Of a DNA stretch of 64,000 nucleotides, positions 2,767-8,852 are shown piece by piece. The translations under genes were made by a program, and so were the position numbers. The notes beneath the pieces are model-generated. The model was not told where the DNA came from. It saw only the letters and a program-made list of their open reading frames with translations, and made no database searches. The DNA lies in the NCBI RefSeq assembly GCF_022378355.1, contig NZ_JAKMAJ010000007.1:186001-250000 (forward strand), written 5' to 3'. Every line of letters starts with the position of its first letter. Positions within the stretch are counted from its first letter, which is position 1. Source of the DNA: Brenneria bubanii (GTDB lineage Bacteria > Pseudomonadota > Gammaproteobacteria > Enterobacterales > Enterobacteriaceae).

Positions 2767-2798
2767 TACTGTAGTTTTGCCTGCAAGATGATGTACAG

Positions 2799-2827
2799 AA
2801 TGGCGCCTGAAAGGGCGCCATTTTTTT
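2799..2827 (+). terminator. Rho-independent terminator of ihfB
   Basis: A 9-bp GC-rich stem (AATGGCGCC with GGCGCCATT) is followed directly by seven T. It lies 33 bases after the ihfB stop. It separates ihfB from the minus-strand cluster that ends at 2923. Confidence 0.9.
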
Positions 2828-2922
2828 ATGCTCGTAATCCGTCAGGCAGCCATAAGCCTGCTGGAAAAGGTTTCCGACTATCTGCGGAGCGTGATTCGCG
2901 CAAGTTTTGAACACGATGGCGA

Positions 2923-3570
2923 TCAACGGGGGGGCGGCGCGCCCAACCATTCGACAGCAAACATCCCCGCGGCGCTAACGGCGTCGATGGCCACGCATCC
3001 TATCTCGTTTCTGATGCGTGGCGCTAGGGCGATGGTCGACAGGCCCGTGCAGGAAAACGCGATCACTTTCGCGCCGCCGCGGTAGAGCCGCCGAGCACAG
3101 GCAAATGCGCTTTCTCTACCTTCCGACGTGAGCAAATCGGTTGTTTGCGCCACGCCGTCCGGACGCGCATAGGCAACATCCTCTCCCAGTATGCGGCGAA
3201 ACGGCGCCGGTGCCCGATCGCCGATACCCATAACCGCAACGGGCAGCCTGAGATTGGCGGCGATCCGGGCGCAAGCGCTGCCCGCGCTGATCACCGGTAT
3301 GGCGACGGCGCGGCGAAGCTGCGCCAAACCGGGATCGGCGGCACAACTAAGAAATATTGCCTGACATCCTTGCTGTTGATAAGACTGGCCGAGCGCAATA
3401 ATCTTGGGAATAGCGATGTTTTCGCTGTCGCGGTCGAAAATGCCATGGTCTTGATCGGCAATGCAGCGACTAACAGACTGTAAACCATATTCCTGCCGCA
3501 ACAGGCGTCCATGTTCGTCGAGCAGAGACCGATCCGAGGTAGTGAGTACACGAATAATGCCGAGCGTCAT
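2923..3570 (-). CDS. Asp/Glu/hydantoin racemase family protein
   Basis: This 215-residue protein belongs to the aspartate/glutamate/hydantoin racemase superfamily, cofactor-independent enzymes that invert a stereocentre with two cysteines. Both expected cysteines are present in context: Cys76 in LSCAADPG and Cys174 in FSCTGLS. The start at 3570 (MTLGIIRVLT) is preceded by a GGAGG about six bases away; an in-frame ATG at 3636 would add 22 unconserved residues. It is the last gene of the minus-strand cluster, 41 bases after peptidase E. The C-terminus ends in Ala-Pro-Pro-Pro-Arg, coded partly by a run of seven C, where a frameshift could alter the tail. The substrate is unknown; an aspartyl or hydantoin-like compound would fit the neighbours. 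Confidence 0.8.
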   Translation of the reverse strand: MTLGIIRVLTTSDRSLLDEHGRLLRQEYGLQSVSRCIADQDHGIFDRDSENIAIPKIIALGQSYQQQGCQAIFLSCAADPGLAQLRRAVAIPVISAGSACARIAANLRLPVAVMGIGDRAPAPFRRILGEDVAYARPDGVAQTTDLLTSEGRESAFACARRLYRGGAKVIAFSCTGLSTIALAPRIRNEIGCVAIDAVSAAGMFAVEWLGAPPPR

Positions 3571-3611
3571 GAGCGTCCTCCAGGGAGCGTGGTGAGATTC
3601 TTTCTCTGAAT

Positions 3612-4307
3612 TTATGTCAACCGTATCTCGCCGCAATCCAGTGTTGTCGGCGGCTGTTGTGCCTTAAACAGCGTCGCCGGATAGGGGCCGTCCAGGCGGA
3701 CATGTTCGCCGTCAACCGTCAGCCAGTCGCCTTCAGGCATGCCGACGATAGTGATATCGGGTTGAGCCGTTAACAGTTCAGCTAACCGCTGGTTGCGGGT
3801 TTCGCCCTGATGTCCATCGGGAAGTCGATTGGTATAATGCGGGTTGATCTGAAAATCGATCAAATTCAGCGCTTCGAAGCCCTGCGGATCGATGATGGGC
3901 ATATCATTGGTGGTGCAAATTGTCGGGCAGGCAAGATTGGCGCCTGCGCTCCAGCCGATATAGGCCGCGCCCTGTTGAACGCGCTGGCGGATAGCAGTCA
4001 GCAACCCGCGCTCTCGGCAGCACTTCAGTAGATTGAAGGTATTGCCGCCGCCGACGATGATGATATCGGCATTGAGTACGGCCTGTCGCGGATCTACCGC
4101 AGTATGAACCGAGGTAATCGCGATATCGATAGCGGATAATGCCCGTCGCACTTTTTCCGTGTAATCATCCCAGCTTATTGTCACGCCGGCAAAAGGAATA
4201 AAGAGTGCGTTCTTACGCGTCTTGGCCAGGCAGCGAATTGCATCCTGCGCATGTTCCAGATAGCCTTTGCCCGGCAGACTTGAATTGCTAAGCAGTAATA
4301 GTTCCAT
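3612..4307 (-). CDS. pepE: Peptidase E (alpha-aspartyl dipeptidase)
   Basis: Peptidase E is a cytoplasmic serine peptidase (family S51) that hydrolyses dipeptides with N-terminal aspartate. The protein has 231 residues against 229 in E. coli and is closely similar throughout. The known catalytic triad is intact: Ser120 in GWSAGAN, His157 in INPHYTN and Glu192 in MPEGDW; Asp135 is also conserved. The N-terminus [20 protein letters not shown] matches the family, and the ATG has AGGAAA upstream. It sits 19 bases downstream of the AroM-family gene in a six-gene minus-strand cluster with an OPT transporter. That suggests the system handles aspartyl peptides. The enzyme identity is firm; its role in the cluster is inferred. 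Confidence 0.93.
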
Positions 4308-4326
4308 TCAACTTTTCCTGTCGTGA

Positions 4327-5001
4327 TTAAATTAGCCCGGCGACAAGGCGGGCGATTAATGCGTTGGAAAGCAGAACCGGCAAGCCGGTAGCCTCAATGA
4401 CCTGTTGCCGGTGCCATTCGGTATATCCCATACAGTCCATAATGATGACGTCCGCCTGCTGCGCTTTTAAGGAAAGCGCAGCCTGAAGCAATTCATCGCG
4501 GCTTCCGTCATAAGGCGATACCGCCGCGTAAACGGGCGGGCGTTGCACATGGCGCCATTTTTTACCTTCGCTGGCTATCTGTTTTTCCAACGGCACGAGA
4601 ATGCCGGCCTGGCGCTGGTCGATAAGCGTGGCGGCGACAGGCGGCACCAGCCTGTCTGGTTCAATCAGCCATGCCTGCCGGCAAGAAAGACCATGAAACT
4701 CGCCGGTACAAAGCAATATGATCAGCGAGCAGCCCTGTTGTTCCAGCTGGTTCAACTTTTGTTGAACCGCCTGATGTACGGCCGTTTTGCCTAGGATAAC
4801 GGCGCTGCCGTCCAGCAACCTGCTGGTCAACACCGCGTCATCCGGCCGTGGTGCGAATTGCCGGTCAATGGCGGCTTTATCTAAAACGTCCAGCACCCCG
4901 GCGTGAATACACCGGGTCCCAACCGGCAGAAGCGACTCCAGTATCGGCGTAATATCGGCGCGAGGAGCCTGACCGATAGTCAGTGTACCGAGCAGCGGCA
5001 T
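4327..5001 (-). CDS. AroM-family protein with two racemase-like Cys motifs
   Basis: This 224-residue protein aligns over its length with E. coli AroM (225 residues), a protein without proven function despite its name. Shared landmarks are the N-terminal TIG motif, the segment around EP.R..PP, and DCMG near the C-terminus followed by VLLSN.LIARL. Unlike E. coli AroM, which as I recall has Ser at the first position, this one has a cysteine in each of two motifs: Cys98 in LLCTGEF and Cys190 in MDCMGYT. The spacing resembles the two catalytic cysteines of Asp/Glu racemases. The start at 5001 has AGGAGG at ideal distance; the ATG at 5007 is too close to it. It lies 13 bases after the DUF1177 gene. 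It is probably an enzyme of the cluster, not part of aromatic biosynthesis. Confidence 0.8.
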   Translation of the reverse strand: MPLLGTLTIGQAPRADITPILESLLPVGTRCIHAGVLDVLDKAAIDRQFAPRPDDAVLTSRLLDGSAVILGKTAVHQAVQQKLNQLEQQGCSLIILLCTGEFHGLSCRQAWLIEPDRLVPPVAATLIDQRQAGILVPLEKQIASEGKKWRHVQRPPVYAAVSPYDGSRDELLQAALSLKAQQADVIIMDCMGYTEWHRQQVIEATGLPVLLSNALIARLVAGLI

Positions 5002-5014
5002 AGTCATCTCCTCC

Positions 5015-5944
5015 TCATTGGCGTTTTTGCAAGTGAGCCAGCGAACCATAAAGTTCGATCAAATGATCATATTCGGCCTGTTCGAAGAACTGGCAGGTAT
5101 TGCGGGTATATTCTTTGGCGACTTCCACCACGAATTTTGCCGTCGCCGCGATATCGATCTCATGGCTGGCGCCGGTTCCGCAACCCGGTACGGCGCTTTC
5201 GGTGGTGATGGCGACGCCAACCACCGGCGCGTCGGTGGCAATCGAGGGCTGGAGAATACTGTTCAGGTGGTATACGCCGTTGCCATAGGGCGTAATATCC
5301 TGAGTCGTGATGGGGAAGGTCACCGGCGCTCTGCCGCTGGTCATTTCCATGATGCGCAGTAAATCATCGGAGAGGCGCAGAATGTATCCCTGCTTTACCG
5401 TCGGTGAAATAGCGTACCCCTTATGGTTGATGATGCGATTGCCTTTAGTGGTGTCAATGGACAATACCGCATCCATTTCAGGCATCACTTCCTGTTCGTT
5501 CATGTCTTCGGTGTCCACCGGCGAGTCCATGAAGTCGACCGGTTCGTGTGGCCGGGTCGGCGCATCCGGGCAGATGTGCGTTGTGATGATCACATCGCCC
5601 GGCAGCGTATCGCCCTGAGCTTGCATGTGAGCCAGTTTCAATGCCGCCGCAACGGCCGCAACGGCGCCGTCGCCATCCGAAACCAGACCGATACGCTCAG
5701 GGCGAGCGCCGATGCCGCCTAAACGACCGACGATGCCGATGGTACGGGACTGACCGCCTTTGCGTTTGCCGCTGCTGCCGGGAATGATGATTTTTACGAA
5801 ATCCGTTTTCCCCTTATCGCCTTTGAATTCGGTGACGCTGACCTCAACGTCAGCGTAGGCGGAAAGCAGTTCGACGACGGTTTTTCCGCTGGCGGCGGCG
5901 CTATCAAGGGCTTCGAATGCTTGTAAAGTTTGTTGAAGACTCAT
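5015..5944 (-). CDS. DUF1177 family protein
   Basis: This 309-residue protein is full length for DUF1177, a family with no established function. There is no signal peptide or membrane segment, so it is probably cytoplasmic. Two regions catch the eye. One is GLVSDGDGAVAAVAAALKLA (about 86-105) followed by LPGDVIITTHICPDAP, which looks like the Asp-Gly-x-Gly helix and following strand of M20/M28-type metallopeptidases. The other is a C-terminal His-Glu at 261-262 before a long helix. Conserved-looking Asp and His residues (90, 92, 123, 127, 133, 164, 261) could bind metal. This is inference from pattern only. The ATG at 5944 has a purine-rich GAGAGAG upstream. It is located between an OPT transporter and the AroM-family gene. 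Confidence 0.8.
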   Translation of the reverse strand: MSLQQTLQAFEALDSAAASGKTVVELLSAYADVEVSVTEFKGDKGKTDFVKIIIPGSSGKRKGGQSRTIGIVGRLGGIGARPERIGLVSDGDGAVAAVAAALKLAHMQAQGDTLPGDVIITTHICPDAPTRPHEPVDFMDSPVDTEDMNEQEVMPEMDAVLSIDTTKGNRIINHKGYAISPTVKQGYILRLSDDLLRIMEMTSGRAPVTFPITTQDITPYGNGVYHLNSILQPSIATDAPVVGVAITTESAVPGCGTGASHEIDIAATAKFVVEVAKEYTRNTCQFFEQAEYDHLIELYGSLAHLQKRQ

Positions 5945-5979
5945 CTCGTTCTCTCTCTCTAATAGGTGTTTGCCCGTTA

Positions 5980-6090
5980 TCTTTCAAGTCGCAGGCGCTT
6001 GCTGCCCTTATTCACCCCGGCCATTTACTTGAGTAACGCCAGGGATTCGCTCGGTTGCCGGCTTCCTGCAGCTCGATATGTATCGGGTAC
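5980..6090. repeat. Imperfect palindromic intergenic repeat
   Basis: A roughly 110-base element sits in the 171-base gap between the OPT transporter and DUF1177 genes. Its terminal arms, TCAAGTCGCAGG (5984-5995) and CCTGCAGCTCGA (6065-6076), are inverted repeats matching at 9 of 12 positions. The interior has a second inverted pair, TTACTTGAGTAA (6026-6037). From memory it resembles a non-coding palindromic repeat scattered in Pectobacterium, Serratia and Yersinia genomes. Transcribed within the cluster mRNA, it would fold into a long hairpin. Confidence 0.7.
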
Positions 6091-6115
6091 ATTCAGGAAT
6101 GTCGTGGTATTGCCG

Positions 6116-7753
6116 TTATTTCCCACTGATTTTGCTGGAAAATATGGAACTGAAGAAATTGAATATCGCATCGCCGGCGATCAGGCCAGCGGCAAAAACC
6201 TCCATCCGATTCCGCATTTTTTCTCCACCGATCTTGATAATCATTAACCGCAGCGCAATCCCCAGCAATACCGCCCAGCCGGCCAACGGATTGGCGATCA
6301 GCAGGCCGGTAGCCAGCAGAACGCCTAATTGGCGTTTGGATCCGCCCAGCCATTGAATCAAGGCGCCGGGTATCGCCCAGATCACCAGCGATTTGGCGAT
6401 GTCCATAGAAACGCCGGCCTGGATGGTCGCGACATACACTTTGGCGACCGGTGGAACCAAATTATTCTGGAAGTAGCTCTGATAGGAGAAATACACCACC
6501 GGAATGGCGATAACAAAAGCGACCAGTGCGGCAAACAGCTGCTGACGACGGCCCTCCAATTCAAAGGCAGCATCCACGCCATTGTCGCGCAGGATAAAAC
6601 CGGCTTTCAGGTCATAGCCCATATCGGCGAAGGCCGGGCCGGTGGCGACGGAAAAAGAGCACAGCACGGCGAGTCCCAATAAGGGAAAACCGATCATCAT
6701 GCCGATGATCAGGGTGATCAGCGCGACGGCAAATGCCGGGAACCAGCCGGAGTGCATCGCAGCCAGTCCGACAATCAGCTCATGAATAAAGGCGGCAAAA
6801 GCGGCATAGACGATAAACGCCACCAGCATGCCCACCGACATTTCGCTGTACAGTCCGGTACCCGCCGCAATCAGCATCGCAAGCACGATATAGCCAATCG
6901 CCCCCATGCGGATCGCGCGCAGAATGTGCTGGCGGTCATCGTTAGCGGCTTTCAGCGATTCGGCCGACAGTGAAGCCTGCGCGTCTTTTCGACCGCGAAT
7001 AAGCACGACAACCTGAAAAAGCGCCACAATACCCGCGCCGATCATCATACCGTGGGGGATATAGTTCTTATTAATATCAATGCCCAAGATAGGCAGGCTG
7101 TAGCCACGCAACAGTAAGCCGAGACCAAACATCGTCAGCGCCCAGATATTGCCGATAAAGGCCGTACCCAGCGCCGACATGGGTAATTTAAACCAGGAAC
7201 CGATGGCGCCGATAGCCAGTCCGGCGCTGAGGATGGCGGCCTGACTGCCTCCCTGATCGCCGGCCTTGATCGACTCTGCCGCCGCCACGCCCGGCGGCCA
7301 GGTGCCGCTCGCCGGGAATACCGACGTATTGAACATGCGGTAAAGCAGGTACGCATCCAGCAGCATGGCCAGCGCGACGCCAATGAACACCGGCAGCACC
7401 AGATCAGGTCGGCCAAATAACCACATTACGCTGATTGGCAGCAGCAGGCTGTTGGCCGCGCCAAACGTCGCGGACGAGATAGCCGTCTGCGCCAGATTTT
7501 GCACGTGAACCGAGCGGAAACGGCGTAACAACTGCAGGGGAATACGGGCAATGATCATGGCGATCAATGCGCCGATAATCGACGTGTTCGGGGTAACCCC
7601 CAGCGTGGTCAATAGCTGGATGCCAATGACCGCGCCAAACAGGCTCAAGACCACGAGAAACACCAGCGTCAGTGGATTAAAACTGCGATGGTGCCGCTCT
7701 TTTGGTTTCTCCGGATGATTTTCCGTCTGGTTTAGGGATGAATGATCGGACAT
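6116..7753 (-). CDS. OPT/YSL family transporter
   Basis: This 545-residue polytopic inner-membrane protein is of the oligopeptide transporter (OPT/YSL) superfamily, proton-coupled importers of small peptides or metal chelates. After a hydrophilic N-terminus of about 25 residues come many hydrophobic segments, starting FNPLTLVFLVVLSLFGAVIG and including a conserved-looking FPASGTWPPGVAAAESIKAGD segment split by the family's Gly-Ala-rich helices. The length fits bacterial OPT proteins. The ATG at 7753 has AGGAG nine bases upstream. It lies 49 bases downstream of the IclR-type regulator and 171 bases upstream of DUF1177. It is the only transporter in the cluster, so it probably imports the compound the other enzymes act on. 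The substrate cannot be read from sequence. Confidence 0.85.
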   Translation of the reverse strand: MSDHSSLNQTENHPEKPKERHHRSFNPLTLVFLVVLSLFGAVIGIQLLTTLGVTPNTSIIGALIAMIIARIPLQLLRRFRSVHVQNLAQTAISSATFGAANSLLLPISVMWLFGRPDLVLPVFIGVALAMLLDAYLLYRMFNTSVFPASGTWPPGVAAAESIKAGDQGGSQAAILSAGLAIGAIGSWFKLPMSALGTAFIGNIWALTMFGLGLLLRGYSLPILGIDINKNYIPHGMMIGAGIVALFQVVVLIRGRKDAQASLSAESLKAANDDRQHILRAIRMGAIGYIVLAMLIAAGTGLYSEMSVGMLVAFIVYAAFAAFIHELIVGLAAMHSGWFPAFAVALITLIIGMMIGFPLLGLAVLCSFSVATGPAFADMGYDLKAGFILRDNGVDAAFELEGRRQQLFAALVAFVIAIPVVYFSYQSYFQNNLVPPVAKVYVATIQAGVSMDIAKSLVIWAIPGALIQWLGGSKRQLGVLLATGLLIANPLAGWAVLLGIALRLMIIKIGGEKMRNRMEVFAAGLIAGDAIFNFFSSIFSSKISGK

Positions 7754-7802
7754 GAAACACCACTCCTGAATTGAGATAACTTACTTGGTTTTTTATAACG
7801 GC

Positions 7803-8567
7803 TTACTCTAACCAGTAGCGGTCGCCATATTTTTTGCCGATCGGCATGGCCGAGTCGGTTAATTGCTGGGCTAAATTCTGTATTTCCTGTTCACTCGCCA
7901 TGCTGGCCGGGAATGTCAGGCAAAATGCAATGGCTTCGCCGCTTTGCGGATTTTTCACCGAACAACTGATAGAGGCGGTGCCGGAGACCGCTTCGTTAAT
8001 TGCGGAAGACCAGCGCTGTTGCTTCACCGTCTGCAGCTGTTCCTGAAGACGTTCGAAAGGGAGCTGCCTTTTACCTTCCGCCGGCAGCGTTTGGTCAAAA
8101 TAGACCTGTAGTTGCTGGGTGCTATAGCGAGAGAGCAGCGAACGTCCGGTGGATGTCGCCCATGAAGGGGAGCGGGTGCCAGGATGGGTAATAACCTGCA
8201 ACGCATGGCGGCCGGGAATCACTCGCAAGACCAGAATGTCAGGACCATCCAATACCGAAAGGTAGCCGGTATGGCCGGTAGAATGGCATAACGCGCGCAG
8301 CGCCTGTTCGATATCGTCGGTAAGAGACGAAGTGCGGTGGGCCAGATAGGCCACTTCCAACAGCATCAAGGCCGGACCATAAGTGGCGCTGTGTGAATCT
8401 TTGCTCAAAAAACCGGTTTCACAGAGCTGCTTCAGTACCCGCGAGGTGGTGCTTTTAGGCAACTGTAGATGTGTAATCACATCACCGGCGGTAATGCCGC
8501 GTTTGAGTTGACTCATCAAGTTCAGAATCGCGGCGGTAGTATTTAATATGCTCATATCAAGTCTCAT
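7803..8567 (-). CDS. IclR-family transcriptional regulator
   Basis: This 254-residue protein has the IclR layout. The N-terminal winged helix-turn-helix spans about 10-65, with recognition region LPKSTTSRVLKQLCETGFL. The C-terminal effector-binding domain is about 80-250. IclR proteins usually control adjacent catabolic genes and their own gene in response to a small ligand. It is the first gene of the minus-strand cluster, directly followed by the OPT transporter, so it probably regulates the whole set. The start at 8567 is used here; ATG at 8555 is nearly as good and neither has a strong Shine-Dalgarno. A GGAAC-CGA-GTTCC palindrome lies six bases upstream of the first ATG. Confidence 0.87.
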   Translation of the reverse strand: MRLDMSILNTTAAILNLMSQLKRGITAGDVITHLQLPKSTTSRVLKQLCETGFLSKDSHSATYGPALMLLEVAYLAHRTSSLTDDIEQALRALCHSTGHTGYLSVLDGPDILVLRVIPGRHALQVITHPGTRSPSWATSTGRSLLSRYSTQQLQVYFDQTLPAEGKRQLPFERLQEQLQTVKQQRWSSAINEAVSGTASISCSVKNPQSGEAIAFCLTFPASMASEQEIQNLAQQLTDSAMPIGKKYGDRYWLE

Positions 8568-8572
8568 AAAAT

Positions 8573-8585
8573 GGAACCGAGTTCC
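8573..8585 (-). promoter_or_regulatory. Candidate IclR-type operator
   Basis: GGAAC-CGA-GTTCC is a 5-bp perfect inverted repeat with a 3-base centre in an A/T-rich flank. It sits immediately upstream of the IclR-family start codon. IclR-family operators are commonly short palindromes of GGAA/TTCC character, so autoregulation and control of the cluster is a fair guess. I did not find a second copy before the transporter gene. Confidence 0.45.
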
Positions 8586-8818
8586 TTTTTATAGAACTAA
8601 GCATATTTTATGCCACGATTTAAGAGTGCGTTTTTATTGATTGATTTTTAATTAAAATGTGTATTTTTTAGTTAACGTGAATGCAATGAATAATCAGAAA
8701 ACAGGGTGGGCAGGGCGATCCAACATGGTGCAAAGCACTATTTTGGATGATTGCCTGCGCCATTGTGGCGCGAGCAAATATGAAAAGGGTGAAGAGGAGC
8801 CGACGGTAGGGATGAATG

Positions 8819-8844
8819 CGGGCACTCTGCAGACAGAATGCCCG
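8819..8844 (-). terminator. Hairpin downstream of the his operon
   Basis: CGGGCA (8819-8824) pairs with TGCCCG (8839-8844), with an inner CTG/CAG pair. It starts 8 bases past the hisI stop. There is no T-run on either side, so termination is uncertain. The rest of 8586-8818 holds only the upstream region of the IclR gene and no convincing ORF. Confidence 0.4.
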
Positions 8845-8852
8845 TAAGAGGG

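Follow-up and report, generated by a model that had tools for sequence, protein, structure and literature searches.

A recurrent gene cluster built round DUF1177 and AroM in Brenneria bubanii, with a proposed role in the scavenging of small peptide-like compounds

A cluster of six genes, encoding an IclR-family regulator, an OPT/YSL-type oligopeptide transporter, a DUF1177 protein, an AroM-family protein, the dipeptidase PepE and a hydantoin-racemase-like protein, was identified in a 64,000-nucleotide stretch of Brenneria bubanii DNA (contig NZ_JAKMAJ010000007.1, positions 186,001 to 250,000). This whole stretch is termed the window, and positions are counted from its first letter. The cluster represents a recurrent, partly mobile and probably catabolic system in which known families are grouped round one uncharacterised family. 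All six open reading frames (ORFs) lie on the - strand between positions 2923 and 8567, and each product scores above the Pfam cut-off of its named family (Table 1). The intergenic gaps, in order from IclR to the racemase, are 49, 171, 13, 19 and 41 bp, the gap of 171 bp being that between OPT and DUF1177. The longest ORFs are too long at the start for AroM and the racemase; the gap lengths use the most likely starts read from the sequence, 5001 and 3570, respectively. Translation of IclR may start at Met5. These ORFs, Pfam matches and corrected starts bear out a preliminary description of this DNA, which reported six co-directional genes with gaps of 13 to 171 bases. The end point of that description, 8585, is 18 bp past the IclR start, at the very position where a palindrome ends that is proposed as the operator.

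Table 1. Features of the gene cluster and the proposed operator (positions in the window)
Feature	Position	Strand	Basis
Proposed IclR operator, palindrome GGAAC-CGA-GTTCC	8573..8585	.	Perfect GGAACNNNGTTCC
IclR-family regulator, first gene	7803..8567	-	HTH_IclR and IclR_C domains; Pfam PF09339 and PF01614 above cut-off
OPT/YSL-type oligopeptide transporter	6116..7753	-	Pfam PF03169, 97.9 bits (cut-off 25.8)
DUF1177 protein, predicted metallo-exopeptidase fold	5015..5944	-	Pfam PF06675, 455 bits
AroM-family protein, predicted Asp/Glu/hydantoin-racemase fold	4327..5001	-	Pfam PF07302, 260 bits
Dipeptidase PepE, peptidase family S51	3612..4307	-	PF03575, 223 bits; NCBIfam PepE equivalog, 326 bits (cut-off 156)
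Hydantoin-racemase-like protein, Asp/Glu racemase superfamily	2923..3570	-	PF01177, 63 bits (cut-off 31)

The clustering of these genes goes beyond chance, as the gene order is kept on plasmids of Klebsiella and Sodalis and in five of ten Brenneria genomes. The five Brenneria genomes, including that of the window, carry all six genes at the same site; in the other five, 13-14 kb were read at that site and none of the six proteins was found. The full set, with its order kept, is annotated on two plasmids: one of Klebsiella, typed as conjugative, where transposase genes flank the set, and pHS1 of Sodalis praecaptivus. A near-mode search with the Klebsiella cluster gave no match in 5,426 E. coli genomes. 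In its own genome the cluster is flanked by ihfB and hisIE (both named by eye), and the S51, AroM and DUF1177 families are each present in a single copy. The hisI-ihfB interval (window 2767-8852) is a variable site in Brenneria. In three genomes without the cluster, hisI and ihfB are about 80-112 bp apart; the two others have different DNA there, about 3.8 kb and about 2.1 kb, respectively. The insert of one genome contains an ankyrin-like and a catalase-like gene and that of another a chemotaxis-receptor-like gene (names given by eye).

Recurrence was examined by BLAST in 86 DUF1177 loci (80 species genomes and six plasmids), in which a family was counted anywhere in a locus of up to 21 kb and on either strand. 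AroM was present in 80 of these loci, OPT in 71, IclR in 55, the racemase in 30 and PepE in 22. By our own reading of the listing, all six families occur together in ten loci, among them one with a broken AroM frame (locus L042; locus numbers are ours). Three layouts were distinguished. The first, IclR-OPT-DUF1177-AroM-PepE with or without the racemase, is found in enterics, Burkholderiales and others, with the variant IclR-AroM-PepE-OPT-DUF1177 in L029 and L036. The second consists of IclR-OPT-DUF1177-AroM alone (Pantoea, Rouxiella, Rahnella, Yersinia and others). The third, that of Bacillota, contains PucR, the racemase, OPT or dipeptide-type ABC genes, often DUF917, DUF1177, AroM and an M29 aminopeptidase; neighbour families were named from one representative per cluster and ABC genes from the annotation. 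An archaeal plasmid carries the genes DUF917-DUF1177-AroM-aminopeptidase together with an ABC importer and a racemase. DUF1177 itself is highly conserved and occurs in Bacteria and Archaea. The DUF1177, AroM, OPT, PepE and racemase families thus recur together across phyla, as a conserved neighbourhood of the kind that the preliminary description had envisaged.

Locus L042 belongs to Candidatus Burkholderia verschuerenii, and its cluster seems to be decaying (5149-6486). A single frame there matches both AroM and PepE, and an AroM-PepE fusion was considered. The AroM match ends at residue 138 and the stretch that follows reads unlike AroM; therefore, the frame was taken as a frame-broken gene and the fusion was rejected.

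The core of the system is composed of DUF1177, AroM and an importer, with PepE and the racemase as optional members. In other loci, OPT is replaced by ABC importers and PepE by M29 or M20 peptidases. The six genes had been regarded as one system; they do recur as a set, but the set is not fixed. A module count was made in the best 80 of 519 relatives, a choice biased to close relatives, with genes on the same strand, within 7 kb and with at least 60 bits. The peptidase is PepE in 20 loci, M29 in 22 and M20 in three, with none in 35 and never two together. The importer is OPT in 66 loci, ABC in ten and both in one, with none in three. Within these 80 loci, PepE is confined to lineages other than Bacillota and M29 to Bacillota; hence their mutual exclusion stems in part from ancestry. 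On a quick DUF1177 tree, in which 35 of 120 inner branches are unresolved and some label changes come from cut contigs, 18 changes are needed for the importer, 24 for the peptidase and 21 for the racemase. Importers of peptide type, combined with finishing peptidases, are most simply read as the uptake of a substrate that is cut as a peptide. Uptake of a peptide chelate, with a metal-peptide or nicotianamine-like chelator as the cargo of OPT and recycling of the ligand as the task of the enzymes, is very improbable. OPT/YSL proteins are known to carry such cargo in plants and fungi, and several carriers of the cluster are, to judge by their names, plant- or insect-associated bacteria. However, the importer elsewhere is a dipeptide-type ABC system, and no metal-handling family was noticed among the annotated neighbour clusters, most neighbours being without annotation.

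In evenly drawn genome samples, DUF1177 is rare in the phylum of the window (3 of 398 genomes, its own included) and was found in the class of locus L034 only in the query genome itself (1 of 369). It is commoner in Bacillota, with 46 positives among 398 genomes, the query genome included. AroM is present in 45 of the same 398 genomes and both families in 37 (Fisher p 9.6e-36); when weak AroM hits are dropped, 41 genomes are positive for AroM and 36 for both (p 1.3e-36). The two genes lie no more than 7 kb apart in 28 of 36 co-positive Bacillota genomes, compared at one place per genome and with one of the 37 (G522, a weak AroM hit) left out. The surroundings of DUF1177 were recorded in 42 Bacillota loci, drawn from the 46 positives; the query genome was set aside, as were three genomes in which the hit was broken or partial, and several of the contigs used are short. 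The families found nearby, by the strand, distance and score limits of the module count, are AroM (26 loci), racemase (23), DUF917 (18), PucR (18), M29 (16), OPT (14) and two or more ABC families (9). As the models of the neighbour families derive from clusters of the first 86 loci, they are biased to relatives of those loci. Three loci (L145, L147 and L148) have DUF1177 between two ABC ATPase-like genes and share the upstream genes k5, k14 and k15; this arrangement is putatively another transporter type.

Of the 51 loci with an IclR gene (among 90 looked at), 33 have a perfect GGAACNNNGTTCC palindrome between -150 and +100 relative to the predicted start of IclR; they include loci of Gamma- and Betaproteobacteria. 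The loci are related to each other, so these are not 33 independent events. Elsewhere in the same loci only two hits occur in 1,001,265 bases, and both are situated 201-235 bp upstream of a predicted IclR start (L042 and L046). In the whole assembly that contains the window, TGGAACNNNGTTCC occurs once, at 8573-8585. Of 17 loci looked at that lack a perfect palindrome, three have one mismatch (Brenneria G005 among them) and four have two (Klebsiella among them). The conserved palindrome is proposed as a candidate IclR site. Neither the OPT-DUF1177 gap nor the stretch above IclR yielded inverted repeats at the set length, a limit that exceeds the 5+5 palindrome. The promoter scan was no richer than chance (4 found vs 4.1 expected), and terminator-like sites numbered 17 vs 6.7. 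The IclR protein matched no NCBIfam equivalog at cut-off, and no PDB chain was found for the OPT protein by sequence at E <= 0.1.

No published function for DUF1177 was found in the open-licence literature, where a paper that came up for it concerns DUF1996 to judge by title and abstract, and no significant relative of known structure was detected by sequence (best E 0.042). The AlphaFold2 (AF2) model of the protein (pLDDT 84.9, pTM 0.89) was compared with the PDB. Among the 50 matches listed, which are many copies of few proteins, 47 are named as M17/PepA or Streptomyces aminopeptidases and three only as "a protease"; the best E is 1.9e-9 and identities are 10-15%. The Streptomyces aminopeptidases belong to the M28 class. 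The overall fold is accordingly modelled as a predicted zinc exopeptidase of the M17/M28 type. All 124 rows share the residues D90, D92, D164, D216, H226 and E274, and 123 of them have H123; these counts, like those for AroM, PepE and the racemase below, include the window and leave out rows outside the set lengths or scores.

AroM is, by its model, a predicted second racemase-fold protein of the cluster. The AF2 model (pLDDT 94.7) has its best PDB matches in arylmalonate decarboxylase, a putative Asp racemase and hydantoin and allantoin racemases, with some solute-binding proteins lower among the matches; the score against PF01177 is 22.4 bits, below the cut-off of 31. Residues C98 and C190, which the preliminary description did not mention, are present in 109 of 109 rows. 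The predicted racemase fold of AroM, these two cysteines in every row and the match of the DUF1177 model to zinc aminopeptidases are new here. A racemase-like fold is in line with an earlier paper (PMC11055893), in which models of AroM were noted to look like racemases and AroM is described as uncharacterised. DUF1177 and AroM had both been put down as uncharacterised enzymes, and for DUF1177 this agrees with the literature found; however, AroM now has a predicted racemase fold and DUF1177 a predicted zinc-exopeptidase fold. The E. coli aroM gene belongs to the same Pfam family, but the AroM of the window is only about 30% identical to it, and E. coli aroM was rejected as the same system.

PepE matches the aspartyl dipeptidase 1fy2, Salmonella peptidase E, with E 1.7e-85 over 226 of 231 residues. 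Residues S120, D135 and H157, presumably the Ser-Asp-His catalytic triad, are present in 24 of 24 rows, that of the window among them, so that the complete triad reported earlier stands. Salmonella peptidase E has the same three residues; the gene of the window instead lies in an operon with DUF1177, AroM, OPT and the racemase. The product of the last gene is, on its sequence, a member of the Asp/Glu/hydantoin racemase superfamily, with a Pfam score above cut-off and two cysteines. Both cysteines had been recorded before and are found as C76 and C174 in 54 of 54 rows. Its closest match is 2eq5, the hydantoin racemase of Pyrococcus horikoshii (E 9.5e-49).

The nearest arrangement in print is that of AroM, hydantoin racemase, DUF917 and OPT near CDO-like genes, which have been linked with cyclic dipeptides or hydantoin-like rings (PMC11055893, Nat Commun 2024). 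The non-CDPS CDO-like clusters of that paper share AroM, a PF01177 hydantoin racemase, OPT or peptide ABC importers and peptidases with the present cluster, and DUF917 is common to them and to the Bacillota DUF1177 clusters. DUF917 is the only DUF in its main text. In contrast, the six proteins of the window match neither CDOA (nitroreductase), CDOB (PF19585) nor DUF917. The CDO-like pair (nitroreductase and PF19585) is present in three of the 80 DUF1177 loci, namely L071, L072 and L073 (Paenibacillus, Bacillus and Planomicrobium), the Pfam names having been verified for two of the proteins, the L071 nitroreductase and the L072 protein with PF19585. The DUF917 protein of one Bacillota cluster scores 294 bits against the 440-bit cut-off for thiohydantoin desulfurase and is thus a relative, not a member, of that family. 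Two plasmids, of Salipiger (L195) and Neorhizobium (L196), carry AroM with no DUF1177 annotated nearby. The Salipiger plasmid has ABC genes near AroM, with DUF917 and hydantoinase annotated beside it; the Neorhizobium plasmid has peptide-type ABC genes near AroM and an annotated hydantoinase. The links of the cluster to cyclic amides, through DUF917, the CDO-like pair and the Salipiger AroM, are indirect.

These links bear on the possibility that the operon degrades hydantoin- or allantoin-like rings, the racemases acting on hydantoins, DUF1177 opening the ring and the peptidase removing a side amide. The match of the racemase to a named hydantoin racemase, the DUF917, PucR and hydantoinase/oxoprolinase genes of related clusters and the hydantoin or allantoin substrates proposed for related clusters (PMC11055893) all point in this direction. 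However, the hydantoinase, DUF917 and carbamoylase families are without a match among the six proteins, and the importers and peptidases that stand in at other loci are of peptide types. Peptidase E, too, acts on peptides. Ring degradation of this kind is considered unlikely. The earlier statement that no described pathway has this combination is consistent with the open-licence literature, in which the whole pathway was not found described. Nothing useful was found there on peptidase E with AroM or OPT, on cyclic-dipeptide catabolism genes, on aspartyl dipeptidase with diketopiperazines or on thiohydantoin desulfurase.

On the best reading, the products of the cluster would take up, epimerise and hydrolyse a small peptide-like substrate, for which an aspartyl or cyclic dipeptide is plausible. 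With moderate confidence, the cluster is proposed to be an inducible operon for the scavenging of a small peptide-like compound whose residues have the "wrong" configuration or belong to a ring. The most plausible candidate is an aspartyl dipeptide, either as such or in a cyclic (diketopiperazine) or epimerised form. For this subtype an aspartyl dipeptide is preferred as the best guess in view of PepE, a predicted aspartyl dipeptidase. Paenibacillus chibensis DSM 329 hydrolyses cyclo(L-Asp-L-Phe), a breakdown that would feed an Asp-X dipeptidase. In the proposed mechanism, IclR would bind the palindrome and sense the compound or a product, and OPT would import the compound. AroM and the second racemase would epimerise alpha-carbons by means of paired cysteines. 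DUF1177, as a putative metal-dependent hydrolase of exopeptidase fold, would open or trim the amide, and PepE would cut the resulting Asp-X dipeptide to amino acids. The preliminary description had likewise suggested a pathway for uptake and breakdown. The recurrence, the candidate regulator site, the peptide-type importer, the peptidase and the racemases support that part, but the substrate is still a guess.

Several observations weigh against this proposal. The fold matches listed for DUF1177 have TMq values of only 0.50-0.57, its model is weak (pLDDT < 50) at residues 77-82, 84-86 and 252-258, and a comparison with M42 peptidases by hhalign gave nothing significant. PepE and the racemase are absent from most of the 86 loci, and the aspartyl substrate may therefore hold only for this subtype. 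For the palindrome, TGGAACNNNGTTCC has 15 hits in the ten Brenneria genomes (four at the cluster) vs 19 for the backwards pattern, and is thus not enriched genome-wide in Brenneria; the remaining 10 of the 17 loci without a perfect copy (Sodalis and Kosakonia among them) have three or four mismatches, which is the chance level. A strict operon is also at odds with 8 of the 42 Bacillota loci, in which DUF1177 occurs without AroM, a same-strand importer, the racemase, DUF917 or a peptidase, two of these contigs being shorter than 7 kb. These lone loci (L138, L139, L142, L143, L131, L136, L137 and L144) have three distinct shared surroundings, and a stand-alone role for DUF1177 in them is possible. 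The genomes with DUF1177 and no other family, like the varying peptidases and importers, would also fit general scavenging of mixed L/D dipeptides from peptidoglycan or protein ageing, with no single substrate. This is decidedly unlikely, as the cluster's own IclR, a palindrome that is single in the genome and the tight linkage suggest a defined inducer.

The proposal of an inducible peptide-scavenging operon can be carried further, in a tentative and rather doubtful form. DUF1177 and AroM might define an unnamed family of dipeptide or cyclic-dipeptide catabolic systems that bacteria share with archaea. DUF1177 would act there as a new metal-dependent hydrolase, ring-opening or epimer-specific, in company with one or two cofactor-free epimerases, and the family would supply genes for the bacterial breakdown of aspartyl diketopiperazines, which has long been known but is not assigned to genes. 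Microbial hydrolysis has been observed for compounds to which no enzyme is assigned (PMC3852281); if the proposal is true, the cluster would provide genes for such breakdown. It would also give a use to AroM, which is uncharacterised according to PMC11055893. The predicted fold, the neighbours and the palindrome turn DUF1177 into a testable hypothesis with named substrates.

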